Of a stretch of 45,079 bases of DNA, positions 1,836 through 44,998 are shown piece after piece. Every line of letters begins with the position of its first letter. Position 1 is the first letter of the stretch. Position numbers and translations under genes: made by a program. Source of the DNA: a virus; IMG/VR virus record IMGVR_UViG_3300045930_000092, positions 1-45,079 of that record; one strand, 5' to 3'. The notes beneath the pieces were generated by a model. That model searched no databases and was not told where the DNA came from. It saw only the letters and a program-made list of their open reading frames with translations.

Positions 1836-2228
1836 ATGGAAGAGAGCGTTCTATTGAGCACAAAGAAGATCCTCGGTATCAGTCCTGACGACGATGCCTT
1901 CGATCTCGACGTCATCACCCACATCAACTCGGCCATCTCCATCCTCGAGCAGGTCGGGATCCCCAACGAGGGGTACATCCAGGACGACGAGCCCACCTGG
2001 GGAGACGTGTTCGCGGGGATCGTGGACGATCCAAACCGCAATCAGCTCCAGCTGATCAGGACCATCGTCTATCTGCAGGTGCGTCTGCTGTTCGATCCGC
2101 CTGCTACCTCCTTCCTGATCGCTGCCACACAGGAGCAGATCAGGGAACATATCTGGCGGCTCAATGTCAGACGAGAAGACATCGAGTACGTAGATCCGGA
2201 TCCTCCGGGGGTGGTTCTAGATGGCTAA
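1836..2228 (+). CDS. Head-tail connector (gp6-like)
   Basis: A 130-residue, mainly helical protein. ATG 1836 is preferred over GTG 1830 because the latter overlaps the AAAGGAGG ribosome site. The pattern KKILGISPDDDAFDLDVITH at the N-terminus, TWGDVFAG in the middle and YLQVRLLFDPP near residue 80 is typical of phage head-tail connector proteins that form a ring below the portal. It overlaps the next gene by 8 bases. Its distance from the portal gene (6 kb) is unusual for this family. Confidence 0.72.
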   Translation: MEESVLLSTKKILGISPDDDAFDLDVITHINSAISILEQVGIPNEGYIQDDEPTWGDVFAGIVDDPNRNQLQLIRTIVYLQVRLLFDPPATSFLIAATQEQIREHIWRLNVRREDIEYVDPDPPGVVLDG

Positions 2229-3171
2229 CCTGGTCATCGCGGCCATCCCCGCTGAGGATGACTACGTCCACAAGATCTCTAGCGAGAAGGTCCCGCATTG
2301 CACGCTGCTGTTCCTGGGCGATGCGATGAAGGTTCCCAACGTGCTCAAGATCGTGGAGTTCGTCGGACATGCGGTCGATGTTTGGGAGCGCGGGCCCTTC
2401 ATGCTGGAGGTGGACCACCGCGGAACGCTGGGAGAGGACAAAGCGGACGTTCTCTTCTTCAAGAAGAACTGGAGCGGAAAGGAGCTGGAGAACTTCCGCT
2501 GGCAACTTCTCCAGAACAGCCAGATCCGCACGGCGTATGACAACGCGGACCAGTTCGAGGGTCCCTGGATCCCGCATCTGACTCTCGGCTATCCCGAAAC
2601 TCCTGCAAAAGAGGATGATCGGGACTATCCCGGCATTCGCTGGGTCGACTTCGATCGCATCGCGGTCTGGTTCGGGAACTACGAGGGGCCGGAGTGGCGG
2701 CTCGAGTACAACGACGACCTCGCGGAGGTGAGCATGGGCACAGAGGTAGCACGTGGTGAGGAGTTCATCGCCCACTTCGGCGTCAAGGGCATGAAGTGGG
2801 GCGTGCGCAAGGAGCGGTCGGTCTCGACCAGCGTCCAGACGGATCAGGGTCTCGTCCGCCGCAAGACGGTGGTGAAGACCAAGGGCGGAGAGTCCCATCC
2901 GGCGCATACCGATGCGATCGTCGCCGCAGTCCAGAAGCAGAAGCTCAAGAAGAGCGGGACGGCGGCACTCTCCACACAAGAGCTGCGCGAACTCTCCACT
3001 CGCCTACAGCTCGAAGCACAAGTCGAGTCGCTGACGTCCAAGAAGGGCAAGAAGTTCGCTCAGCGCCAGCTGGAGACGGCTGGCCAGCAGCAGATCCAGC
3101 GCGGCGTTGCCCGAGGCATCGCCAAGGGTGCGGCGAAGAAGGGCGGAACGGCGGCACTTCTGCTCGCATAG
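2221..3171 (+). CDS. 2H phosphoesterase fused to virion-type GMKWG segment
   Basis: The N-terminal ~170 residues carry the two His-x-Thr motifs of the 2H phosphoesterase superfamily: PHCTLLFLG with His26 and Thr28, and PHLTLGYP with His119 and Thr121. These enzymes open 2',3'- or cyclic phosphodiester bonds; relatives include the phage anti-CBASS protein Acb1. A HFGVKGMKWGVRK motif follows at 185-197, a short element found in many phage head proteins, then a Lys/Gln-rich helical tail. The gene sits among head genes just before the large terminase. What I see is the fused architecture; a virion-delivered cyclic-nucleotide hydrolase is inference. RNA end-processing is the main alternative. Confidence 0.72.
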   Translation: MANLVIAAIPAEDDYVHKISSEKVPHCTLLFLGDAMKVPNVLKIVEFVGHAVDVWERGPFMLEVDHRGTLGEDKADVLFFKKNWSGKELENFRWQLLQNSQIRTAYDNADQFEGPWIPHLTLGYPETPAKEDDRDYPGIRWVDFDRIAVWFGNYEGPEWRLEYNDDLAEVSMGTEVARGEEFIAHFGVKGMKWGVRKERSVSTSVQTDQGLVRRKTVVKTKGGESHPAHTDAIVAAVQKQKLKKSGTAALSTQELRELSTRLQLEAQVESLTSKKGKKFAQRQLETAGQQQIQRGVARGIAKGAAKKGGTAALLLA

Positions 3172-3183
3172 GAAGGAGGTCTC

Positions 3184-4929
3184 ATGGCGCTGTCCAATAC
3201 TGCAACGCCTGTCTATTACGGACAGTTCCGTGATGCCGTCGTGCGAGGTCAGATCCCGGTGAACCGGGAGATCTCGATGGAGATGAATCGCATCGACGCG
3301 CTCATCGCCAACCCGAACATCTACTACGACGATCAGCAGGTGGAGGGCTTCATCCGGTTCTGTGAGGGCGAGATGACCCTCACGGACGGTGGAGATCTTC
3401 ACCTGCTGTTCAGTTTCAAGCTGTGGGCCGAACAGGTTTTCGGCTGGTGGTACTTCGTCGAGCGGAGTGTCTACGTTCCCGACGAGGATGGGTACAACGG
3501 GCATTACCAGAAGCGGACGATCCGGAAACGGTTGGTCACGAAGCAGTATCTGATCGTGGCCAGAGGAGCGGCTAAGTCGATGTACGCCGCTCTGATCCAG
3601 GCCTACTTCATGTGCGTCGACACCACGACCACCCACCAGGTGGCCACGGCTCCGACCATGAAGCAGGCCGAGGAGACCATGTCTCCGATGAGGACGGCGA
3701 TCACGCGCGCGCGTGGGCCGCTCTTCAAGTTCCTCACCGAGGGTTCGATGCAGAACACCACGGGGAACAGGATGCTCAGGCAGAAGCTTGCATCCACCAA
3801 GAAGGGCATCGAGAACTTTCTGACCGGATCGCTGTGCGAGATCCGGCCGATGGCGATCAACAAGCTCCAGGGACTGCGTCCCAAGATCTCGACGATCGAC
3901 GAATGGCTGTCCGGCGATCTCCGAGAGGACGTTGTCGGTGCCGTGGAGCAGGGAGCGTCGAAGCTTGACGACTTCCTGATCATCGCCATCAGCTCAGAGG
4001 GAACCGTCCGCAACGGTTCCGGCGACACCATCAAAATGGAACTCGCAGATATCCTCAAGGGCGAGTACCACGCACCGCACATCTCGATCTGGCACTACAA
4101 ACTCGACGAACTCGAAGAAGTCGGTAATCCCGGCATGTGGGTCAAGGCGAATCCAAACTTAGGACTGACTGTTACCTATGAGACTTACCACCTTGACGTG
4201 GAGCGGGCCGAGAAGGCACCTGCGGCCAGGAATGACATCCTGGCCAAGCGGTTTGGTATCCCCATGGAGGGCTACACGTACTTCTTCACATATGAAGAGA
4301 CGTTGCCCCACCGTCCACGAGACTTCTGGCAAATGCCATGCTCACTGGGCGCGGATCTATCACAGGGCGACGACTTCTGCGCATTCACCTTCCTCTTTCC
4401 ACTTGGCGGAGAAAGGTTCGGAGTCAAGACTCGGAGTTACATCACGGAGCGCACGCTGTATCTGATCCAACCAGGTCTGCGCCCGAAGTACGACGAGTTC
4501 ATCAAGGAAGGGTCGCTCCATGTCATGCCGGGCACAGTCCTGGACATGATGGAGGTCTACGACGATCTCGATGCGTTCATCATCTCCACCGAGTACGACG
4601 TCAGAACCTTCGGGTACGACCCCTACAACGCCAAGTCGTTCGTCGCTCGCTGGGAAGCCGAGAATGGTCCTTACGGGATCGAGAAGGTGATCCAGGGAGC
4701 CCGGACGGAATCTGTCCCGCTCGGTGAGATCAAGAAACTCGCCGAGGACCGGTTCCTCATCTTCGACGAGGCACTCATGCAGTTCGCCATGGGCAATTGC
4801 ATCACCATGGAGGACACCAACGGCAACCGGAAGCTGTTGAAGCGACGGCAAGAGGAGAAGATCGACAACGTGGCGGCCCTCATGGACGCCTACATCGCCC
4901 TCAGGGCAAACCCGGAGGCATTCGAATGA
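3184..4929 (+). CDS. terL: Terminase large subunit
   Basis: This 581-residue protein is the packaging motor ATPase and nuclease. The Walker A-like loop is VARGAAKS (Lys131), the Walker B is STIDEW (Asp239, Glu240), and the RNase H-like nuclease domain begins with GADLSQGDD (Asp391), followed by FGYDPYNA and, near the end, [12 protein letters not shown]. Length and order match HK97-type large terminases. AAGGAGG precedes ATG 3184, and the next gene overlaps the stop by 4 bases. Confidence 0.93.
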
Positions 4930-6128
4930 CCGAGACGGTGGAGCTTCCACCTGGACCGCAGGTCCTGGAAGCGATCCTGGTTCCGGGAGTTCAACGGAAC
5001 CCGAACCGCCTGGCTGGTCGTGTCGCGCTCTACGATCAGTTCGGAAACCCGATCGATCTCGCCTCGGGCTCTCAAGGGCCAAAGGGCGATACCGGTCCTG
5101 AAGGTCCTGTCGGACCGATCGGTCCGCAAGGCCCTCCCGGCACTGCCGGAGCCGCAGGTGCCGCAGGTGCCGCGGGGCCCAAGGGTGATACCGGAGCTCA
5201 GGGTGTCGCTGGACCTCAGGGCGTCAAGGGTGACAAGGGCGACAAGGGTGACACCGGAGCCCAGGGCCCGATCGGCAACACCGGAGCCGCAGGCGCGACG
5301 GGCGCAGCCGGAGCTCAGGGCCCCGCCGGGGCCGCAGGTCCCAAAGGCGATACCGGAGCTGCCGGAGCTCAAGGTCTCCAAGGTGCCAAGGGGGATCAGG
5401 GCATCAAGGGCGACACCGGAGCCCAGGGCCCGATCGGCAACACCGGTGCGACAGGTGCCGCGGGCGCGCAAGGGCCTGCCGGTGCGGCCGGGCCCAAGGG
5501 TGATCCGGGCAACCAGGGTCCCGCGGGCGCGACGGGCGCGCAGGGAACCCAAGGCGTCAAGGGCGATACCGGCCCGCAGGGATCGGTCGGAGCCACAGGA
5601 GCCCAGGGTGCGACCGGTGCTCAGGGCGCTCAGGGTCCTGCGGGGATCCAGGGACCGAAGGGCGATCCGGGTCAGAGCATTCTCTGGCGGAACAAGATCC
5701 GCTGCACGGCTGGGGCATATCGCTCGGCCAGTTTCAACGGGTCCACGGCGTATCACGTTCTCGAGCAGACAGCCACCATGGGCGCACCGAGCATTCAACT
5801 CAATGTGCCTTCACAGTCGGTGGCCTTCGAGCTGGAGTGCATCCACAACATGGCGCTCAATCGCAAGGACGACGCCGCGTATCACTACCTCTACCACGGG
5901 ATGCGCCTGATCCCAGACGACGAGGACGGGTTCGCCTATATCTGGGTGGTCACCACTCAGCACGGTAGCGTGAACCAGTTCGAGGGGTTCAACATCAAGG
6001 GCTCGTTCCGATGCAAGGCCGGGACTTCGTACTCGCTTCAGGCCATCATGGGCGGCGGCAACGGCGGAACCTGGAACTACATGAAGAACGAGATGACCTG
6101 GCTCGAGGCGAAGGCGGTGGCACTGTGA
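4926..6128 (+). CDS. Collagen-like virion fibre protein
   Basis: A 400-residue protein with three parts. Residues ~10-45 form an N-terminal module ([15 protein letters not shown], then [14 protein letters not shown]) that recurs in the next two genes. Residues ~50-250 are Gly-X-Y repeats rich in GPKGDTG, GAQGPIG and GAAG, which form collagen triple helices. Residues ~255-400 are a globular head beginning [16 protein letters not shown]. Collagen-like phage proteins act as trimeric tail fibres or capsid appendages in host contact. Position between terL and portal is atypical for a tail fibre and suggests a head or neck decoration; that is inference. Confidence 0.85.
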
Positions 6129-12291: not shown

Positions 12292-12945
12292 ATGGCACCA
12301 CTGACCTGGGATCAGGTCGGAGAGCGGCTGTACGAGACCGGCGTCGACCACGGCGTGCTCTACATCCCCGACGAGACCGGTGTCTACGACTCCGGCTTCG
12401 CCTGGAATGGTCTCACCACCGTCACCGAGTCCCCGTCTGGCGCCGAGGCCAACGCCCAGTACGCGGACAACATCAAGTACCTCAACCTGCTGTCGGCCGA
12501 GGACTTCGGCGGCACGATCGAGGCCCTCACCTACCCGGACGAGTTCGGCCAGTGCGACGGCACGGCCGAGGTCAAGCCGGGTGTCCAGATCGGCCAGCAG
12601 GGCCGGAAGTCGTTCGGCCTGTCGTACCGGACCCGGCTGGGCAACGACGTCGAGGGCGTGGACCACGGCTACAAGCTCCACCTCCTCTACGGGCTGCTGG
12701 CAGCCCCGTCCGAGAAGGCCTACGCCACGATCAATGACTCGCCGGAGGCGATCACGTTCTCGTGGGAGGTCTCCTCGACGCCGGTGCCGGTGACCGGGTA
12801 CAGGCCGACGGCGCTCCTGATCGTCGACTCGACCACGGTCGACGCCGCGGCGCTCTCGGATCTCGAGGACCTGCTCTACGGCGGGGCCTCCACCGAGGCC
12901 AGCTTGCCGACCCCGGACGAGGTCATCGCGCTGGTCGGCCCGTAG
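12292..12945 (+). CDS. Major tail (tube) protein, copy 1
   Basis: This 217-residue product is the probable main tube subunit of the tail. It begins LTWDQVGERLYETGVDHGVL and carries AWNGLTTVTESP, YRTRLGNDVEGVDHGYKLH and a conserved end with SSTPVPVTGYRPTA. Third positions are nearly all G or C, like the capsid gene and unlike copy 2 at 13519, which argues that this copy is the abundant one. AAAGGA precedes ATG 12292. Confidence 0.85.
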   Translation: MAPLTWDQVGERLYETGVDHGVLYIPDETGVYDSGFAWNGLTTVTESPSGAEANAQYADNIKYLNLLSAEDFGGTIEALTYPDEFGQCDGTAEVKPGVQIGQQGRKSFGLSYRTRLGNDVEGVDHGYKLHLLYGLLAAPSEKAYATINDSPEAITFSWEVSSTPVPVTGYRPTALLIVDSTTVDAAALSDLEDLLYGGASTEASLPTPDEVIALVGP

Positions 12946-13518: not shown

Positions 13519-14157
13519 ATGACCGCCCTGGTTTGGGACCAGGTGGGCGAACGTCGTTTCGAGACCGGAATCGATCGCGGCGTCCTGTATCTCCCCGATG
13601 TCGCCGTCCCCTGGAACGGTCTGGTCTCGATCGATGAGACCCTCAGCCGGGAGGTCAAGCCGTACTACATCGATGGGATCAAGTTCCTCGACCACCACGT
13701 CCCGGGGTCATACGCTGCGAAGCTGTCGGCGTTCACATACCCCGACGAGCTCGACTCCCTGATCGGAATCCTGGAATTTGCTCCGGGGGTCTTTGTCCAC
13801 GATCAAGGGCAACCCAAGCTGTTCAACCTCTCGTATCGGACGAGAGTGGGGAACGATGTCGAAGGTGTTGACCACGCCTACAAGATCCACATCGTCTACA
13901 ACATCCTGGCCATCCCCAACGACACGTCCATGGGGACCATCTCCGACTCTCCAGAAGCACAGTCTTTCCAGTGGTCGCTCTTCGGGACGCCCTCACACAT
14001 GTTCGGGATCAGGCCCACCAGTCACATCTCGCTGGAATCCCGAACCATCGATCCGGCTCTGCTGACCTCCATCGAGGAGCTCCTCTACGGCTCAGAGGAT
14101 GCTGACCCCAACCTCCCCGGGTTGGTCGATCTCCTCGCTCTGGTTGAGTCAGCATGA
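13519..14157 (+). CDS. Major tail protein paralogue, copy 2
   Basis: A second 212-residue tube-type protein, clearly related to the one at 12292: LVWDQVGERRFETGIDRGVL at the start, LSYRTRVGNDVEGVDHAYK in the middle, and an equivalent C-terminal ELLYG segment. Its codon use is ordinary, with mixed third positions, so it is probably made in smaller amounts. It may form a special tube segment, such as the tip or collar, or support the adhesin gene that overlaps its stop. AAAGGAGG precedes ATG 13519. Confidence 0.8.
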   Translation: MTALVWDQVGERRFETGIDRGVLYLPDVAVPWNGLVSIDETLSREVKPYYIDGIKFLDHHVPGSYAAKLSAFTYPDELDSLIGILEFAPGVFVHDQGQPKLFNLSYRTRVGNDVEGVDHAYKIHIVYNILAIPNDTSMGTISDSPEAQSFQWSLFGTPSHMFGIRPTSHISLESRTIDPALLTSIEELLYGSEDADPNLPGLVDLLALVESA

Positions 14158-24970: not shown

Positions 24971-24978
24971 CGGGATAT

Positions 24979-25009
24979 TCGCGGCTAAAACACCGCGTAT
25001 AGTGAGAAC
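24979..25009 (+). promoter_or_regulatory. Cassette promoter copy 1
   Basis: First of nine gapless copies of a 31-base element: TCGCG, variable bases, AAAC at positions 10-13, and a conserved right half (consensus TGTAATGAGAAC; here TATAGTGAGAAC). It lies 19 bases before the gene at 25028. Function as promoter is inferred from repetition and position. Confidence 0.72.
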
Positions 25010-25401: not shown

Positions 25402-25438
25402 CCGGGGGGAGATTTCCGAAAACCGGCTTTATATTACG

Positions 25439-25469
25439 TCGCGAAATAAACATGGCATGTAATGACAAC
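25439..25469 (+). promoter_or_regulatory. Cassette promoter copy 2
   Basis: TCGCG, AAAC and TGTAATGACAAC (one change from the common GAGAAC). It precedes the 45-residue gene at 25488 and follows TTATATTACG. Confidence 0.72.
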
Positions 25470-25630: not shown

Positions 25631-25658
25631 ATAGAGTCCTACCCGGGCTCTATTTTTT
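25631..25658 (+). terminator. Intrinsic terminator of cassette 2
   Basis: ATAGAGTCC pairs with GGGCTCTAT around the loop TACCC, followed by TTTTT. The next promoter copy starts at the end of the T-run. Confidence 0.75.
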
Positions 25659-25688
25659 CGCGCAGAAAACACGGCTTCTAATGAGAAC
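25658..25688 (+). promoter_or_regulatory. Cassette promoter copy 3
   Basis: TCGCG, AAAC and TCTAATGAGAAC, with the leader continuing as CCCCT before the ribosome site of the gene at 25709. The G of TGTAAT is C here. Confidence 0.74.
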
Positions 25689-25903: not shown

Positions 25904-25919
25904 CCAGGGTTTCGTTTTT
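25891..25919 (+). terminator. Intrinsic terminator of cassette 3
   Basis: CGAGACCC pairs with GGGTTTCG around a loop containing the TAA stop, followed by TTTTT. Promoter copy 4 starts at the last T. Confidence 0.75.
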
Positions 25920-25949
25920 CGCGTAGAAAACATCGGTTGTAATGAGAAT
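25919..25949 (+). promoter_or_regulatory. Cassette promoter copy 4
   Basis: TCGCG, AAAC and TGTAATGAGAAT; drives the gene at 25982 through a leader of about 35 bases containing TTAGGAGAAG. Confidence 0.74.
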
Positions 25950-26177: not shown

Positions 26178-26208
26178 GGAGAGGCCGCAAACGCGGCCTT
26201 TCTCTTTT
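26178..26208 (+). terminator. Intrinsic terminator of cassette 4
   Basis: GAGAGGCCGC pairs with GCGGCC and then TCTC across a small bulge; loop AAAC; TTTT follows and runs into promoter copy 5. Confidence 0.74.
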
Positions 26209-26238
26209 CGCGGGGAAAACACCGGTTGTAATGAGAAC
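26208..26238 (+). promoter_or_regulatory. Cassette promoter copy 5
   Basis: TCGCG, AAAC and TGTAATGAGAAC, an exact match to the shared parts. It precedes the gene at 26262. Confidence 0.76.
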
Positions 26239-26460: not shown

Positions 26461-26487
26461 GAGAGAACCCACACGGGTTTTCTCTTT
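26461..26487 (+). terminator. Intrinsic terminator of cassette 5
   Basis: GAGAGAACCC pairs with GGGTTTTCTC (one G-U) around ACAC, then TTT. Confidence 0.75.
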
Positions 26488-26517
26488 CGCGAAAAAAACA
26501 TGGCCTGTAATGAGAAC
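26487..26517 (+). promoter_or_regulatory. Cassette promoter copy 6
   Basis: TCGCG, AAAC and TGTAATGAGAAC; the leader continues CCCCT and reaches AAAGGAATC before ATG 26538. Confidence 0.76.
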
Positions 26518-26720: not shown

Positions 26721-26750
26721 TGAGGACCTGCTAACACAGGTTCTCATTTT
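26721..26750 (+). terminator. Intrinsic terminator of cassette 6
   Basis: TGAGGACCTG pairs with CAGGTTCTCA (one G-U) around CTAACA, followed by TTTT. The 3' arm GGTTCTCA is complementary to the conserved leader TGAGAACC. Confidence 0.76.
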
Positions 26751-26780
26751 CGCGTAAAATACACGGCTTGTAATGAGAAC
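26750..26780 (+). promoter_or_regulatory. Cassette promoter copy 7
   Basis: TCGCG, then TAAAATACACGG and TGTAATGAGAAC followed by CCCCT. It precedes the gene at 26804. Confidence 0.76.
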
Positions 26781-26941: not shown

Positions 26942-26970
26942 AGAGGTAAGCCCACACGGGCTTTCTCTTT
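26941..26970 (+). terminator. Intrinsic terminator of cassette 7
   Basis: AAGCCC pairs with GGGCTT around ACAC, extended by AGAG with CTCT across a bulge; TTT follows. The first base overlaps the stop codon. Confidence 0.68.
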
Positions 26971-27000
26971 CGCGTAAAATACATCAGTTGTAATGAGAAG
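26970..27000 (+). promoter_or_regulatory. Cassette promoter copy 8 (drives an RNA)
   Basis: TCGCG, TAAAATACATC and TGTAATGAGAAG. Unlike the other copies it is not followed by a ribosome site and normal gene but by the structured stretch 26995-27088. Confidence 0.74.
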
Positions 27001-27088
27001 GAAGTAGCGCGATGCGAATGTAGTCGCTTCCAACAAGCGACCGCTCTCGAAACAGTTCGACACTCGTTTCGAGCCTTCTCTTTTTCTA
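26995..27088 (+). ncRNA. Structured small RNA with closing stem and terminator
   Basis: The stretch begins GAGAAGG (26995-27001) and ends CCTTCTC (27074-27080), a perfect 7-pair closing stem, followed by TTTTTCT. Inside are a 7-pair hairpin GTCGCTT/AAGCGAC (27023-27041, loop CCAAC) and an 8-pair hairpin CTCGAAAC/GTTTCGAG (27046-27073). A CGC/GCG mini-stem near 27007-27016 would complete a four-arm shape of 86 bases. The only frame inside is ATGCGAATGTAG (Met-Arg-Met-stop), with no clear ribosome site. The size resembles a tRNA, but U33 and a correct T-arm are missing. I infer a phage small RNA. Confidence 0.65.
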
Positions 27089-27538: not shown

Positions 27539-28381
27539 ATGAACATCCCTGGTCTACAGCAGGCGGTTGGTCGGTTCATATCCGACAACGCCTCGACCAT
27601 TCTCACGGCAGGTGGTGTCATCGGCACCGTCCTGACCGCAACGCTCGCTGCGAAGGCGGGCGGTAGCGCCATGCTCCGTATCGACATGAAGGAGCGCGAG
27701 GACTTCTGGCTGGCTCGGGCAGTGGCCGAGGAGGACTCGAACGATCCCCTCACCGACGCAGAGCTCGAAGAGCTGACCCAGGCGAACAAGCTCTCGAAGG
27801 TCGAGAAGCTCAAGATCGCTGCGCCGCTGTTCATCCCGCCCGTCATCATCGGCACCCTCACGGTCGCCAGCATCGTGATGTCGAATCAGATCTCGGCCAA
27901 ACGTGCCGCAGCCCTGGCAGGGGCATACGCCTTGTCCGAGCAGCGCTGGGCCGACTACAAGGAGCGGGTGGAGCAGAAGCTCACGAAGCCCAAGCGCGAG
28001 CAGCTCGAGACGGAGATCGCAGAGGACCGGATGAACGTCAACCCGCCGACGGCGCAGGAGATCATCCTGGTCGGAAGCGGCGAGGTCCTGTGCTACGACA
28101 TGTACAGCGACCGGTACTTCAACAGCACGGCTGAGAAGATCCGGGCGGGGCAGAACAAGATCAACGAAGAGCTGTTCCAGTCGCAGTACGCCAGCCTGAG
28201 CGCCTTCTACGACTACGTCGGCCTGCCACCGACCGGTTTCAGCAACGACGTCGGCTGGAACATGGCGACGACGGGGGCCTGCGAAGTCAGGATCACGGCG
28301 CACAAGTCGCCTGACGACAAGCCGTGCCTGGCGTTCGACTTCGTCGTGCCGCCGAGGCCGGAGTACGTACAGAACTACTGA
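27539..28381 (+). CDS. DUF6353-like membrane protein, copy 1
   Basis: A 280-residue protein whose leader is GGAGAACCCCCTA, the same word that follows the cassette promoters. Two hydrophobic segments (ASTILTAGGVIGTVLTATLA and LFIPPVIIGTLTVASIVM) flank a charged stretch. After them comes a conserved region: AGAYALSEQRWADYKERVEQ, EEIL-type QEIILVGSGEVLCYDMYSDR, and a C-terminal DYVGLPPTGFSNDVGWN. I recall this profile as DUF6353, found in phages of Gram-positive hosts. A paralogue lies at 30740. Role unknown; the fold suggests a membrane anchor with a cytoplasmic domain. Confidence 0.72.
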   Translation: MNIPGLQQAVGRFISDNASTILTAGGVIGTVLTATLAAKAGGSAMLRIDMKEREDFWLARAVAEEDSNDPLTDAELEELTQANKLSKVEKLKIAAPLFIPPVIIGTLTVASIVMSNQISAKRAAALAGAYALSEQRWADYKERVEQKLTKPKREQLETEIAEDRMNVNPPTAQEIILVGSGEVLCYDMYSDRYFNSTAEKIRAGQNKINEELFQSQYASLSAFYDYVGLPPTGFSNDVGWNMATTGACEVRITAHKSPDDKPCLAFDFVVPPRPEYVQNY

Positions 28382-29490: not shown

Positions 29491-29494
29491 TCTG

Positions 29495-29525
29495 TCGCGA
29501 AGGAAACACCGCATATAATGAGAAC
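29495..29525 (+). promoter_or_regulatory. Cassette promoter copy 9
   Basis: TCGCG, AAAC and TATAATGAGAAC, then CCCCT. Here the -10-like word is a perfect TATAAT. It drives the gene at 29547, about 2.5 kb from the main array. Confidence 0.78.
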
Positions 29526-30739: not shown

Positions 30740-31672
30740 ATGAATCTGATTCCCACGGCGATCAGCCAGGGGGTGGCACGCGCAGGACTCAGCGCCAGCA
30801 AGAACGCCCCGGCGATCCTGTTCGGGGTTGGTGTTGCGGGCATGCTCGGCTCCACCGTTCTGGCCTGCAAGTCCACGCTCAAGCTCGACGAGACCCTTGA
30901 CAAGACGCGCAAGGAGCTCAAGCGAGTCAAGACCGCCACCGTGAACGGCTACACCGAGAAGGACCGCCGTCACGACATCGCCGTCACCTACCGTGACGGC
31001 ATCTTCAAGATCGTCAAGCTGTACGGCCCCTCGATTCTGATGGGAGCCGCAGCCATCGCCTGCCTGGCGAAATCGCACAACATCCTCGTGCGACGCAACG
31101 CCGCCATCAGCGCCGCCTACATGGCGGTACACGAGGCGTTCGAGAAGTACCGCAGCCGGGTTCGCGAGAAGTACGGCGTGGAGGAAGACCTCCGGATGAT
31201 GCACGACACCGAGCCGGTGGACATCATCAACGAGAAGGGCAACATCACGCACACGACGCGAGTGTCGGGTGAGCCCTCGCTGTACGCCCGGTTCTTCGAT
31301 CAGCTCTCGCCGGAGTGGACGGACGATCCGGACTACAACCTGGTCTGGCTCAAGAGCCAGCAGACCCGGTTCAACCATCTGCTGCATGCCCGCGGCCACG
31401 TGTTCCTCAACGAGGTCTACAAGGGCATCGGACTCGATCACACCGGGCCGGGTTCCGTCGTCGGCTGGGTCCTGACCAACGACGGCTCGACCGACAACTA
31501 CATCGACTTCGGGCTCTACGAGGACAACGAGAGCGCGAGGAACTTCGTCAACGGCCGGGAGAACGCTGTTCTCCTGGACTTCAACGTCGACGGGCTGATC
31601 TGGGATAAGCTCAGCAAGTCCAAGCAGCCCAGCCGTCCGCGTCCCGCCACGAGGCTCCAGTGGCAGAGCTAG
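30740..31672 (+). CDS. DUF6353-like membrane protein, copy 2
   Basis: A 310-residue paralogue of the 27539 product. It has the same order: hydrophobic segment 1 (APAILFGVGVAGMLGSTVLA), charged helix, hydrophobic segment 2 (LYGPSILMGAAAIACLAKSH), then AISAAYMAVHEAFEKYRSRV and a longer C-terminal region with HVFLNEVYKGIGLDHTGPGS, SVVGWVLTNDGS and a closing Asp-rich part. AAGGAG precedes ATG 30740. Two diverged copies in one phage suggest a hetero-oligomer or division of roles; that is inference. Confidence 0.7.
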   Translation: MNLIPTAISQGVARAGLSASKNAPAILFGVGVAGMLGSTVLACKSTLKLDETLDKTRKELKRVKTATVNGYTEKDRRHDIAVTYRDGIFKIVKLYGPSILMGAAAIACLAKSHNILVRRNAAISAAYMAVHEAFEKYRSRVREKYGVEEDLRMMHDTEPVDIINEKGNITHTTRVSGEPSLYARFFDQLSPEWTDDPDYNLVWLKSQQTRFNHLLHARGHVFLNEVYKGIGLDHTGPGSVVGWVLTNDGSTDNYIDFGLYEDNESARNFVNGRENAVLLDFNVDGLIWDKLSKSKQPSRPRPATRLQWQS

Positions 31673-41039: not shown

Positions 41040-41053
41040 TTCCATATATTACC

Positions 41054-41084
41054 CAGCGTGAAAAACGCGGCATGTAATAGAAGG
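41054..41084 (+). promoter_or_regulatory. Diverged cassette promoter copy 10
   Basis: Aligns without gaps to the array element: CAGCG for TCGCG, AAAC at 10-13, CGGCA, TGTAATAGAAGG. It precedes the nuclease pair and the RNA-polymerase-like gene. It is the only copy found by eye outside 24979-29525. Confidence 0.55.
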
Positions 41085-41135
41085 AATGGAATGTCGCATC
41101 TATTTTTAGCCCCCCGCCTCAAGAAAGGAGGGTCC

Positions 41136-41453
41136 GTGACAGAGGCCGCATTCCAGGCAAAGCTCATCAGGAGACTGAAGAGAATGTTCCCGGGATGCGT
41201 GATCATGAAGAACGATCCACAGGACACGCAAGGCATTCTCGATCTCACGATCTTCTGGGGTCCTTTCTGGGCGATGCTGGAGGTGAAAGCCAGTGCCGCT
41301 GCAGCCAAGAGGCCCAATCAGACCTACTACGTTCGTGAGATGAACGAGATGTCCTTCGCGTCGTTCATATTCCCGGAGAACGAGGAGGAGGTGCTAACTG
41401 CGCTTCAACAAGCATTTACATCTCGAAGGGCAGCATGCCTTCCTCTCCCCTAG
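41136..41453 (+). CDS. VRR-NUC domain nuclease
   Basis: The frame is open from 41058, but GTG 41136 has AAAGGAGG close upstream and gives the usual length (105 residues); ATG 41091 lies almost on the predicted transcription start. Conserved segments are TEAAFQAKLIRRLKRMFPGC, NDPQDTQGILDLTIFW and AMLEVKASAAAAKRPNQTYY: Asp in ILDL and Glu-x-Lys in LEVK form the nuclease centre. VRR-NUC proteins cut branched DNA. The next gene overlaps its last 56 bases. Confidence 0.8.
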   Translation: MTEAAFQAKLIRRLKRMFPGCVIMKNDPQDTQGILDLTIFWGPFWAMLEVKASAAAAKRPNQTYYVREMNEMSFASFIFPENEEEVLTALQQAFTSRRAACLPLP

Positions 41454-41958
41454 CGTCTACCACTGGATCAACTACGACGAGGAACGTCTTGAGAACCGGT
41501 ACAAGGCACTGCGAGCAGCGCTCGAGGGGATGGAGCAGCACAGGTACGCAGCCATCGCAATCGAGGAGCGAGAAGTACAGGACAATGAGACCACGACGGT
41601 CGGGATGTACATCAACCAGTGCATCCAGTACCGCATGCAGCCCGAGGTCGTCCTTTACTACAGTCCTAATGCTTTTGGGACTGTTGACGCTATCGCTTAT
41701 CGTTACCGTGTGTTGCGTATATCTGACCTCAAAACTGGTGTTACGCGTACTTCTGAGCATCAGTTAGAGGTCTACGCAGCACTCTTCTTCCTCGAGTACG
41801 GGATCGACCCGTACGACACACGTGGTATCGAACTCCGTATCTATCAGGACGGTGAGTGCCGCGTCTACGACGCGGACCCGGCCTTCATCAAGGGGATCAT
41901 GGACAAGATCGTGTGGTTTGACAGACTGCTCAACCAATTGAGAGAGGAGGTGTCGTAG
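41398..41958 (+). CDS. PD-(D/E)xK nuclease with probable CTG start
   Basis: A 186-residue nuclease of the Cas4/RecB-like type. An in-frame TAA (41395-41397) comes directly before CTG 41398, and the first in-frame ATG is 41530. The segment RFNKHLHLEGQHAFLSPSVY between them reads as real family sequence, so CTG is the likely start, with GAGGAGGAG upstream. The core has FGTVDAIAYR (Asp97), ISDLKTG (Asp110, Lys112) and HQLEVYAALFFLEYGID. The stretch 41651-41770 uses T-ending codons unlike its surroundings. It may resect or process recombination intermediates. Confidence 0.7.
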   Translation: MRFNKHLHLEGQHAFLSPSVYHWINYDEERLENRYKALRAALEGMEQHRYAAIAIEEREVQDNETTTVGMYINQCIQYRMQPEVVLYYSPNAFGTVDAIAYRYRVLRISDLKTGVTRTSEHQLEVYAALFFLEYGIDPYDTRGIELRIYQDGECRVYDADPAFIKGIMDKIVWFDRLLNQLREEVS

Positions 41959-44717
41959 TGAAGCTGACCGAAGAGCAGTACCTGGCCCACTATGGCATCC
42001 TCCGGAAGTCCGGCCGGTACCCCTGGGGATCCGGTCACAATGTCGAGAAGCGCAGCCAGGACTTCCTCGATACGGTGAAGAATCTCGAGCGTCAGGGGCT
42101 CAAGCCCACCGAGATCGCCAAGGGCTTCGACATGACCACCACCGAACTTCGTGCGGCCAAGTCCATCGCCAGCAACGAACTTCGTCAGTCGAAGATCAAC
42201 CAGGCGGTGAAGCTGAAGGAGCGCGGCTGGTCTCCCACGGAGATCGGAAAGCGCATGGGCGTCAATGAGTCGACCGTTCGCGGTTACCTCACCGCCCACG
42301 AGAAGGATCAGGCGGACAGCATCCAGAACACGGCAGCGATGCTGATGCGAGAGGTCGAGAAGAAGGGCGTCATCGACATCAGTGTCGGTGTCGAACACGA
42401 TCTTCCTCTTGGTGGAGAGATGAAGCCCAACATCGGGATCACCAACACCAAGCTCAAGACTGCCGTGGCCATCGCCAGGGAGCACGGGTACGTGGTCCAC
42501 CGGATCGCCATCCCTCAGCTTGGACAGCCCGGTCAATTCACCAGGACCAGAGTCCTCGCCAAGCCGGATATCCCGTGGACCGAGATCAACAAGAACCCGG
42601 GCATGATCAAGGTCATCCAGCCGTACACGAAGAACAACGGACGTGACTGGCAGGATGAGGTCTTTCAGACGCCGATCCATGTCAGCTCCAAGCGAGTCCA
42701 GATCAAGTACGCCGAGCACGGAGGCGCCAAGGAAGACGGCGTCATCTACGTTCGTCCCGGTGTGAAAGATCTGCACATGGGAGGCAACAACTACTCCCAG
42801 GTTCGCATCTCGGTCGACGGCACGCACTACATGAAGGGCATGGCCGTCTACAAGGACGGACTGCCCAAGGGCACGGATCTCGTGTTCAACACGAACAAGT
42901 CCATGCACGGCAACTCGCTTCACGACGTCCTCAAGAAGCAGTCCGATGATCCTGATCTTCCCTTTGGCGCTGTGGTCCGCCAGCTGAAGGATCCGAAGAC
43001 AAACAAGGTCGACTCGGCTTTGAACCTGGTGAACAAGGAAGGCGACTGGGACAAGTGGAGCAAGTCTCTGCCCGCTCAGATGCTTTCCAAGCAGAAGCCC
43101 GAGGTGGCCAAGGGTCAGCTCGACTTGTCGTATGAACGTCGGAAGAAGGAGTACGAAGCCATTTCGGATCTGACCAATCCGGTGGTCAAGCGTCATCTTC
43201 TCGAGACATTCGCGGACAGCACCGACTCATCTGCCGTGCATCTCGAGGCTGCGGCTATGCCTCGACAGGCGACGAAGGTGATTCTTCCCATCCCTTCGAT
43301 GCGACCCAACGAGGTGTACGCTCCTTCGTTCCGAAACGGAGAGCGTGTTGCTCTGGTCAGGTTCCCTCACGGTGGGACCTTCGAGATCCCGCAGCTGACG
43401 GTGAACAACAAGAGCATCACCGCCAAGCGCACCATGGGCACCGCAGCCAAGGATGCGATCGGGATTCACCACTCCGTGGCCGAGAGGTTGTCGGGTGCGG
43501 ACTTCGATGGTGACACTGTCCTCGTCATCCCGAATCCCAAGGGGTCTGTAAAAAGTACCCCCCCTCTCGAAGGACTGAAGGGGTTCGATCCGAGGTCTCA
43601 GTACAGGGCCTACGACGGAATGAAGACCGTCGATGGTGGACACTGGAACGAGTCGAGGAAGGAAGTCGTCTTCAAGAAGGGCCAGGTTCCTAACCGAGGC
43701 AACATGCAGATGAAGATGGGAGACATCTCGAATCTCATCACTGACATGACGCTTCGGGGTGCGAACGACGACGAGCTTGCTCGTGCGGTCCGCCATTCCA
43801 TGGTGGTCATCGATTGCGAGAAGCATGTCCTCGACTACAAGAGTTCGTACCGGGACAACGGGATCCCTGCATTGAAGGAGAAGTACCAGGGAAAGAAGCA
43901 GGCTGGTGCCAGCACCCTCATCAGCCGTGCCCGCAGCCCGAAATACATAGATGCCCGTCGCCCAAGGCGCGCATCTGAGGGCGGCCCCATCGATCCGGTT
44001 ACAGGGCGCAAGGTGTACGTACCCAAGGAAGGATCCACGTACACCAACAAGAAGGGCGAGACCGTAACCAGGAAGATGAAGGTCAAGCGCCTGGAGCTTG
44101 AGAGTGACGCCCACAAATTATCCTCCGGCCTCGATGTAGAGACCCTTTATGCGGATCACTCCAACAAGCTGAAGGCTCTTGCCAACCAGGCACGGTTGGA
44201 CACCCTTAGCCTGCCCAAGATGGAGACTCATTCGAGTGCTAAGAAGACATACGCAGCACAGGTGTCTTCTCTGAATTCGAAGCTTCTTCGTGCCCAGAAG
44301 AACGCTCCTCTGGAGAGGCAAGCACAAGCACTTGCCAATTCAGTGGTCATCCAGAAGAAGGCAGCAAACAAGAACCTCGAACCAGCAGAAGAGAAGAAGA
44401 TCAGGAACCAGGCCCTTGCCACCATGCGTGTCCGTACTGGTGCTCGGAAAGAACGGATCACTATCACACAGGCAGAGTGGGATGCGATCCAGGCAGGTGC
44501 TATCTCAGCTGACAAGTTGCAGAAGATCCTGAACAACGCAGACCTGGACTCTGTCAGGAAGCTGGCCACACCTAAGAAGAATCCGAAGTACGTGGTTACC
44601 TCAGCCAAGATGGCAAGGGCACAGCAGATGCTTGCTGATGGGTACTCACAGCAGGACGTGGCCGACAACCTAGGCATAGCACTAGGCACGCTCAAGGCAG
44701 CACTGTACGCAGAGTGA
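41958..44717 (+). CDS. RNA polymerase-like protein (DFDGD, double-psi barrel) with HTH segments
   Basis: A 919-residue protein from GTG 41958. The N-terminus has a YLAHYGILRKSGRYPWGSG element, then helix-turn-helix-like segments at ~50-72 (KPTEIAKGFDMTTTELRAAK) and ~93-112 (SPTEIGKRMGVNESTVRGYL). A lysine-rich stretch HYMKGMAVYKDGLPKGTD (Lys293) resembles the beta-subunit barrel, and ERLSGADFDGDTVLVIP (Asp515, Asp517, Asp519) is the metal-binding signature of beta-prime-type barrels as in YonO and crAss-like phage polymerases. Both barrels in one chain and a length near YonO's are consistent with a single-subunit RNA polymerase. Another HTH-like segment ends the protein (QQDVADNLGIALGTLKAALY). 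Activity is not proven. Confidence 0.72.
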   Translation: MKLTEEQYLAHYGILRKSGRYPWGSGHNVEKRSQDFLDTVKNLERQGLKPTEIAKGFDMTTTELRAAKSIASNELRQSKINQAVKLKERGWSPTEIGKRMGVNESTVRGYLTAHEKDQADSIQNTAAMLMREVEKKGVIDISVGVEHDLPLGGEMKPNIGITNTKLKTAVAIAREHGYVVHRIAIPQLGQPGQFTRTRVLAKPDIPWTEINKNPGMIKVIQPYTKNNGRDWQDEVFQTPIHVSSKRVQIKYAEHGGAKEDGVIYVRPGVKDLHMGGNNYSQVRISVDGTHYMKGMAVYKDGLPKGTDLVFNTNKSMHGNSLHDVLKKQSDDPDLPFGAVVRQLKDPKTNKVDSALNLVNKEGDWDKWSKSLPAQMLSKQKPEVAKGQLDLSYERRKKEYEAISDLTNPVVKRHLLETFADSTDSSAVHLEAAAMPRQATKVILPIPSMRPNEVYAPSFRNGERVALVRFPHGGTFEIPQLTVNNKSITAKRTMGTAAKDAIGIHHSVAERLSGADFDGDTVLVIPNPKGSVKSTPPLEGLKGFDPRSQYRAYDGMKTVDGGHWNESRKEVVFKKGQVPNRGNMQMKMGDISNLITDMTLRGANDDELARAVRHSMVVIDCEKHVLDYKSSYRDNGIPALKEKYQGKKQAGASTLISRARSPKYIDARRPRRASEGGPIDPVTGRKVYVPKEGSTYTNKKGETVTRKMKVKRLELESDAHKLSSGLDVETLYADHSNKLKALANQARLDTLSLPKMETHSSAKKTYAAQVSSLNSKLLRAQKNAPLERQAQALANSVVIQKKAANKNLEPAEEKKIRNQALATMRVRTGARKERITITQAEWDAIQAGAISADKLQKILNNADLDSVRKLATPKKNPKYVVTSAKMARAQQMLADGYSQQDVADNLGIALGTLKAALYAE

Positions 44718-44725
44718 GGTGATGT

Positions 44726-44998
44726 ATGGAAACACATGAAGAGCTGGTGAGTGGCAAGGTGGAGTACATGCTCACCACAGTGGACAATCCATTCGACCCA
44801 TGGGCAGAGTGGGAAGAGTGGCTTGCGTTTGATGCCCGCCACGGCTACCACTCACCAGGTCTGCTTGCACGAATCGTCATCACATCAGATGATTTGTCAG
44901 ATGCCGACCAGGCACTGGCCATCCAAGAAGGCATCGAAGAGATCGTTCGTGAGAACGTTTCTGGAATGCACAAGAAGGTTGCGAGAAGTTCTTCGTGA
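44726..44998 (+). CDS. Conserved small phage protein (90 residues)
   Basis: ATG 44726 follows GAGGTGATGT. TTVDNPFDPWAEWEEWLAFD, HGYHSPGLLARIVITSDDLS and EGIEEIVRENVSGMHKKV match a short protein family I recall from the right end of phages of Gram-positive hosts. Function unknown. A second frame stays open past the stop (LREVLRDHLMRLREWKGVSR) and could be a lost C-terminus. Confidence 0.65.
   Translation: METHEELVSGKVEYMLTTVDNPFDPWAEWEEWLAFDARHGYHSPGLLARIVITSDDLSDADQALAIQEGIEEIVRENVSGMHKKVARSSS

Follow-up and report, generated by a model that had tools for sequence, protein, structure and literature searches.

A candidate cognate promoter for a predicted single-chain, two-barrel RNA polymerase of actinophages and Firmicutes prophages

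Introduction

Among the closest described phage systems, YonO of SPbeta has a catalytic aspartate triad and transcribes late genes, with its promoter and its need for further factors left open (PMC5467207), and gp64 and gp96 of phage P23-45 transcribe phage DNA (PMC10770324). Here, we analyze a 45,079-bp virus record (IMG/VR IMGVR_UViG_3300045930_000092, positions 1 to 45,079; the whole stretch is referred to below as the window), which appears to be a siphophage genome, complete or nearly so, and whose second last gene encodes a predicted single-chain RNA polymerase (RNAP) of the PHROG 4291 family. Two-barrel single-chain RNAPs are a known kind of enzyme, and the family has already been annotated by homology; the novelty lies in a candidate cognate promoter. 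An earlier note on this DNA had proposed the polymerase, and the conserved promoter-like motif described below is a stronger finding than that reading. The literature we searched, mostly without subscription papers, held no report of the activity of a PHROG 4291 enzyme or of its promoter, and the words RNA polymerase and promoter are absent from both of two genome surveys; the polymerase, carried by hundreds of bacterial viruses, seems to have had no prior experimental test.

A promoter-like motif in the window and in related phages

A repeat search of the window revealed an intergenic repeat of ~40 bp, which led to the motif TCGCR-N4-(A/T)TTACA-N3-CCTWTWAT followed by G, our candidate cognate promoter. 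All ten copies in the window lie on the plus strand; nine belong to the early-gene region, and a degenerate tenth precedes the operon of VRR-Nuc, Cas4 and RNAP genes (Table 1). The weight matrix built on the window repeat also finds the motif in phages Bilo, DrGrey, Circum and Untouchable, and less strongly in Lactococcus P078; it is common to actinophages of three host genera and to the latter phage. The 23 actinophage sites read TCGCA-N4-TTACAcG.CcTATAaTGAGACCC, with none on the minus strand, and sites sit in intergenic gaps, mostly ~30 nt 5' of a start codon.

The exact actinophage form gave few matches in 43 bacterial genomes. Because this form is rare in Firmicutes genomes, we searched de novo the 30 kb before the RNAP gene in 16 Firmicutes prophages, most of which proved to carry TCGCAnnAATTACAnnTCCTWTTATGGAAA in multiple copies. 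Under leave-one-out training, the RNAP strand received 168 sites and the other strand 3 (480 kb), as against 4 and 2 sites in 320 kb of segments taken elsewhere from the same genomes; of 177 sites, 172 had an inner spacer of exactly 3. In 40 of 43 Firmicutes loci a site precedes the RNAP start by 920–1484 nt (by no more than 1,080 nt in 38 of these), and no minus-strand site above 18 bits occurs in any of the 43. The model learned from the Firmicutes prophages alone, which supplies the bit scores of Table 1, returned the same nine sites on the plus strand of the window, none on the minus strand, and the weak tenth (9.2 bits); the next-best places are shifted overlaps of other copies, followed by places at ~0 bits. 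The late structural genes of the window have no other copy of the motif. A GGGGGGA-type element, located at the left end and again at 25.4 kb and considered as a late promoter, showed no convincing recurrence in relatives and was set aside.

Across IMG/VR, the exact actinophage pattern recovered 47 contigs of at least 15 kb, 35 of which match the RNAP profile; a few of these matches are short, and two of the 35 are 28-bit matches to one stretch. All 16 actinophage-motif contigs of at least 50 kb carry a full-length RNAP gene. With the Firmicutes pattern, 9 of 16 contigs carry RNAP, including all six of at least 44 kb. Several motif contigs lacking the gene stop after the polymerase or helicase gene, short of the RNAP locus. 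The prediction of the motif across phyla is better evidence for its link with the enzyme than these counts.

Table 1. Coordinates of the motif copies, genes and protein regions in the window
Feature	Coordinates	Strand	Evidence or remark
Motif copy	24978..25008	+	16.2 bits
Motif copy	25438..25468	+	23.6 bits
Motif copy	25657..25687	+	21.5 bits
Motif copy	25918..25948	+	23.6 bits
Motif copy	26207..26237	+	18.1 bits
Motif copy	26486..26516	+	33.8 bits
Motif copy	26749..26779	+	31.4 bits
Motif copy before tRNA-like RNA	26969..26999	+	31.6 bits
tRNA-like RNA gene	26995..27080	+	Outer stem starts at base after TGTAAT; U run 3'
Motif copy	29494..29524	+	20.2 bits
Degenerate motif copy before VRR-Nuc/Cas4/RNAP operon	41053..41083	+	9.2 bits; position conserved in Firmicutes and actinophages
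VRR-Nuc-type endonuclease, first gene of RNAP operon	41058..41453	+	True start probably ATG near 41092
Cas4-type exonuclease	41530..41958	+	Immediately 5' of and touching RNAP start; order kept in relatives
Predicted single-chain two-barrel RNA polymerase, PHROG 4291	41958..44717	+	Open reading frame, profile match, conservation, predicted fold
N-terminal tag, residues 9-27, LAHYGILRKSGRYPWGSGH	41982..42038	+	Predicted disordered (pLDDT < 50); nearly invariant in family
N-terminal HTH, residues 82-113	42201..42296	+	HTH_23 / sigma-70 region 4-like; Pfam 1.4e-9
Putative beta-type barrel region, ~residues 240-360, with K293 (KGMA), P303/G305/D307	42675..43037	+	Alignment and models; approximate boundaries
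Putative beta-prime-type barrel region, ~residues 436-530	43263..43547	+	Alignment and models; approximate boundaries
DFDGD triad D515/D517/D519	43500..43514	+	Alignment
Two helices, residues 580-623, with M587-G588, N592-L593-I594, D596-M597	43695..43826	+	Alignment and model; named residues invariant
C-terminal HTH, residues 882-913	44601..44696	+	HTH_7; Pfam 8.6e-6
Small conserved open reading frame 3' of RNAP	44726..44998	+	PHROG 4303; position conserved in relatives

A tRNA-like gene and the probable layout of the motif

In the window (copy at 26969) and in eleven other genomes, one motif copy is directly followed by a tRNA-like gene. ARAGORN independently finds seven of the Firmicutes tRNA-like genes, placing them by arithmetic at motif +27 to +31. 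When folded with their flanks, most of the 12 form an outermost pair that begins at the base after TWTWAT, often with a U run 3'. As the tRNA-like genes start right behind the motif, their structure suggests that RNA starts at the base after TWTWAT, which would put CGC at about -24, ACA at -14 and TWTWAT at -6 to -1. The tRNA-like genes themselves (window 26995–27080; Untouchable, locus L199, from ~21317; Firmicutes loci) have an extended acceptor stem and a GTTCRA T-loop; the anticodon loop is often unusual, with ARAGORN reporting two-base anticodons or Stop tta. The genome surveys we searched do not mention such a gene for these phages, and Rfam returned weak and implausible matches only; the RNA is perhaps a decoy or a regulator.

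Sigma-70 promoters need a -35 box and start RNA ~7 nt downstream of the hexamer, whereas the T7 promoter is a short element whose last A/T bases immediately precede a G start. The motif likely has a compact, T7-like layout rather than that of sigma-70. A genuine two-barrel RNAP could nonetheless coexist with a motif that is the host's own sigma-70/sigma-A promoter: TATAAT is the canonical -10 hexamer, perfect in the actinophages and present in Lactococcus P078, and the motif stands mainly before early genes. The phage enzyme would then serve late genes only, as YonO does (PMC5467207). We consider this unlikely. There is no -35 box at the usual spacing—the 23 actinophage sites show no conservation ~17 bp before the -10—and the conserved elements fall where sigma-70 spacers are free. 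The Firmicutes hexamer, moreover, is TATTAT or TTTTAT, and the apparent start lies directly after the hexamer, not ~7 nt on. Finally, the motif tracks the PHROG 4291 RNAP, with no such cluster in the stretches of SPbeta (YonO) and P23-45 that we examined.

Nor do we expect the motif to be an operator or promoter element through which some other conserved phage regulator acts together with host RNA polymerase, a prospect kept alive by the many other genes that these phages have in common, in the same order, some of them encoding small conserved proteins of no assigned function. Its promoter anatomy, fixed spacing, strand and distance to the starts of coding and tRNA-like genes argue otherwise, and an RNAP with helix-turn-helix segments (HTHs) is the obvious conserved reader of DNA.

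The polymerase family and its predicted fold

The RNAP gene is an open reading frame at 41958–44717 on the plus strand, with a GTG start, a GGAGG ribosome-binding sequence immediately 5' of it, and a product of 919 residues that matches the PHROG 4291 profile over its full length (residues 4–916; E = 0, 1181 bits). We found the family in 250 of 50,697 phage records, with 36–53% identity among the matches listed; its bearers are actinophages, the Lactococcus P078 group and Firmicutes prophages. The protein is present in many Firmicutes genomes, apparently as prophages, and on no plasmid of the plasmid collection searched. Existing phage records label it 'RNA-dependent RNA polymerase', 'HTH DNA binding domain protein' or 'structural protein', or give no label. 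Relatives in three IMG/VR records (G010, G019 and G026) have one in-frame stop, TGA or TAG, inside the match.

The residues on which the earlier note had built its polymerase reading stood up in an alignment of 106 members (43–80% identity to the window protein). ADFDGD is exact in the protein, and D515, D517 and D519 are invariant. The lysine-bearing segment expected in a beta-type barrel is KGMAVYKDGLPKG at residues 293–305, where K293 (KGMA), G294, P303 and G305 are invariant, as is D307, and the predicted core aligns over both barrels. Equally invariant are M587, G588, N592, L593, I594, D596 and M597, in two helices (residues 580–623) that would occupy the place of the bridge helix and trigger loop. 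The HTH claimed for each end is likewise supported family-wide, HTH_23 and HTH_7 scoring above the Pfam cut-offs in the window protein and both families matching 25 of 25 relatives.

The AlphaFold2 model of the full-length protein, built on the family alignment, has a predicted local distance difference test score (pLDDT) of 87.7 and a predicted template-modelling score (pTM) of 0.78, and is uncertain only in the N-terminal tag (residues 9–27) and short loops. Foldseek against the PDB ranks QDE-1 (1e-8), RDR2 and P74-26 gp62 at the top, followed by cellular largest-subunit chains. A separate AlphaFold model of the core (residues 238–630; pLDDT 92.2) aligns with QDE-1, RDR2, P32 gp64 and P74 gp62 over ~430–500 columns (TMq 0.43–0.55), with beta-prime chains over ~145 columns (3.0–3.3 A) and with p97 over 97 columns (~3 A). 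Whole-chain TM-scores are low (~0.3), which multi-domain chains sharing 12% identity would lead one to expect. PDB sequence searches with the protein and with the profile returned no polymerase. The predicted fold is that of a two-barrel single-chain RNA polymerase: both marks of the superfamily, a DxDGD triad in a double-psi barrel and a beta-type barrel with K293, are supported by the models and the family alignment. The structure prediction and comparison that the earlier note had called for yield two-barrel polymerases as best matches, and the AlphaFold models do not show the fold without two double-psi barrels that it had named as a refutation.

Does the enzyme copy RNA, as its annotation says? 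QDE-1 and RDR2 are the best fold matches, the PHROG name points the same way, and the Pfam RdRP family (PF05183) gives a weak signal in the window protein and, at E up to 1, in 21 of 25 relatives. In the window protein, however, that signal is below cut-off (14.0 bits against a gathering score of 23.8; E 0.02), and the HTHs at both ends, together with the co-occurrence of gene and DNA motif, suggest a DNA template. Moreover, the fold alone cannot tell the type of template, because P23-45 gp64 and gp96 transcribe phage DNA (PMC10770324). An RNA-dependent relative of QDE-1 acting on RNA templates is, on balance, very unlikely. A degenerate, non-catalytic DNA-binding regulator, as might be read from the 'HTH DNA binding protein' labels and from HTHs that pass Pfam cut-offs, is barely credible given an Asp triad and a K293 that do not vary across the 106 sequences, the most distant of them 43% identical to the window protein.

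Proposed mechanism

In our preferred interpretation, which we consider quite probable, the protein is a single-chain, DNA-dependent two-barrel RNAP that uses a compact promoter of its own to transcribe early genes and its own operon, with both catalysis and promoter use predicted. The active site would combine D515, D517 and D519 of one barrel with K293 of the other, as fold and conservation suggest. The enzyme would read TCGC(A/G)-N4-(A/T)TTACA-N3-CCTWTWAT, probably through its N- and C-terminal HTHs, and would start RNA at the base right after TWTWAT, as the ends of the tRNA-like genes indicate. It would thereby transcribe the small early-gene cluster (24.9–29.5 kb) and, from 41053, its own operon; as this last site precedes the gene of the enzyme itself, a positive loop would result. 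If the genome ends are joined, transcription from 41053 could also pass cos into the late structural genes.

Several points weigh against this interpretation. The support is computational, so that enzyme function and promoter use are predictions, and the family is annotated as RNA-dependent. Before the RNAP operon of the window, the motif copy is weak (9.2 bits), and Lactococcus P078 retains TTTTACAnnCCCTATAATG without TCGC. One contig with the Firmicutes motif (G094) has a helicase gene and no RNAP even though it extends ~6 kb beyond the helicase. Shared descent inflates the contig counts, which are for this reason not independent, and metagenome bins account for part of the hosts of the Firmicutes records. 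Lastly, as these phages share many other genes, the reader of the motif could be another conserved phage factor.

Early promoters that depend on a phage enzyme need either its entry with the virion or a first round by host polymerase, and the first enzyme molecules may come by either route. The sequence HYGILRKSGRYPWGSG at residues 11–26, within the N-terminal tag, is highly conserved. The earlier note had taken PWGSG for an element known from phage virion proteins; this did not hold, since the peptide is virtually limited to the RNAP family within the phage collection (253 records), as is the tag HYG..SGRYPWGSG, and PWGSG occurs nowhere else in the window. Instead, a related tag, (A/M)HYGVKGMKWGVRR, is found in head-module proteins encoded beside terminase and portal, including that at 2221–3171 of the window; this related tag also coincides in part with a match to a PHROG that bears the name virion structural protein. 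A tag like that of the head module is compatible with a polymerase packed with the DNA. Literature searches for the motif, PWGSG and MKWGVR found nothing relevant. We offer only tentatively the bolder proposal that the polymerase enters in the phage head by means of its short N-terminal tag and starts the whole infection from a compact promoter that the enzyme alone reads through its built-in HTHs, promoter and enzyme having been kept matched across phages of two bacterial phyla. As a separate observation, the protein at 2221–3171, which adjoins the terminase, carries its tag internally (AHFGVKGMKWGVRK, ~residues 183–197), and tags of the same kind occur on several head-module proteins of relatives.

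Gene content and neighborhood

The window encodes terminase, portal, head protease, tape measure, primase-polymerase, helicase, VRR-Nuc and Cas4 exonuclease, followed by RNAP. Gene order is identical in phages of Streptomyces (Scapunavirus, Rimavirus), Arthrobacter (Mudcatvirus) and Gordonia, and in a Clostridiales genome genes for HNH, terminase and portal come after that for RNAP. The long helicase–HNH gap yielded no useful alignment. A collagen-like tail-fibre gene lies between terminase and portal (4797–6128), where Bilo has none. The window further encodes two paralogous major tail proteins of PHROG 2645 (12292–12945 and 13519–14157) and two paralogs of PHROG 2152 with no assigned function (27539–28381 and 30740–31672). 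At the start of one Firmicutes-type locus (L282), CRISPR-like direct repeats (GTCGAGGTCCGTGAGGGCCTCGTGGATTGAAAT) lie ~30 kb before the RNAP gene.

Significance

With genomes that carry the polymerase sharing a signal in hosts of two phyla, the probable promoters open the enzyme to direct testing. The ~250 sequenced phages with the family, combined with a promoter of explicit sequence, make recognition, start site and template use testable together. Single-chain two-barrel polymerases also serve as models for the origin of cellular RNA polymerases, and a polymerase that consists of one protein and has a defined promoter would, for high-GC hosts, be as useful a kind of tool as T7. Hundreds of records labelled 'RNA-dependent' or 'HTH protein' would have to be corrected.

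Comparison with known polymerases

T7 promoters resemble the present motif in their compact layout only, with the start here deduced from the tRNA-like genes, and the fold of the T7 enzyme is unrelated. YonO of SPbeta is likewise a single chain, and the likeness that the earlier note had drawn stands in size (839 aa versus 919 aa for the window protein) but not in kinship by sequence, the link between the two being insignificant (hhalign probability 2%); the YonO neighborhood has no motif cluster in the stretch examined. The crAss-like phi14:2 gp66, also a two-barrel single chain, is a weak fold match (E 0.02 at full length, 0.0013 for the core) and, at 2166 aa, is much longer than the window protein of 919 aa; its PDB title describes it as virion-packaged. 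Virion RNAPs, a class that includes gp66, P23-45 gp96 and the N4 type, are ejected with the DNA; in the window protein, the N-terminal tag with its likeness to head-module tags is the one feature that points that way. Closer in fold are the non-virion RNAPs of Thermus phages, P23-45 gp64 and P74-26 gp62, which are likewise single-chain two-barrel enzymes of phages and align with the core over ~430 columns (TMq 0.47–0.52). P23-45 gp64 has a short stretch around GADxDGD in common with the window protein, the link over the whole sequence being insignificant (hhalign probability 7%), and, unlike in the window phage, the motif was not found in the P23-45 stretch examined. The closest solved folds across both barrels are QDE-1 and plant RDR2, two-barrel cellular polymerases of RNA interference; at ~12% identity to these, the phage protein is set apart by its HTHs at both ends, its N-terminal tag and its linked DNA motif.

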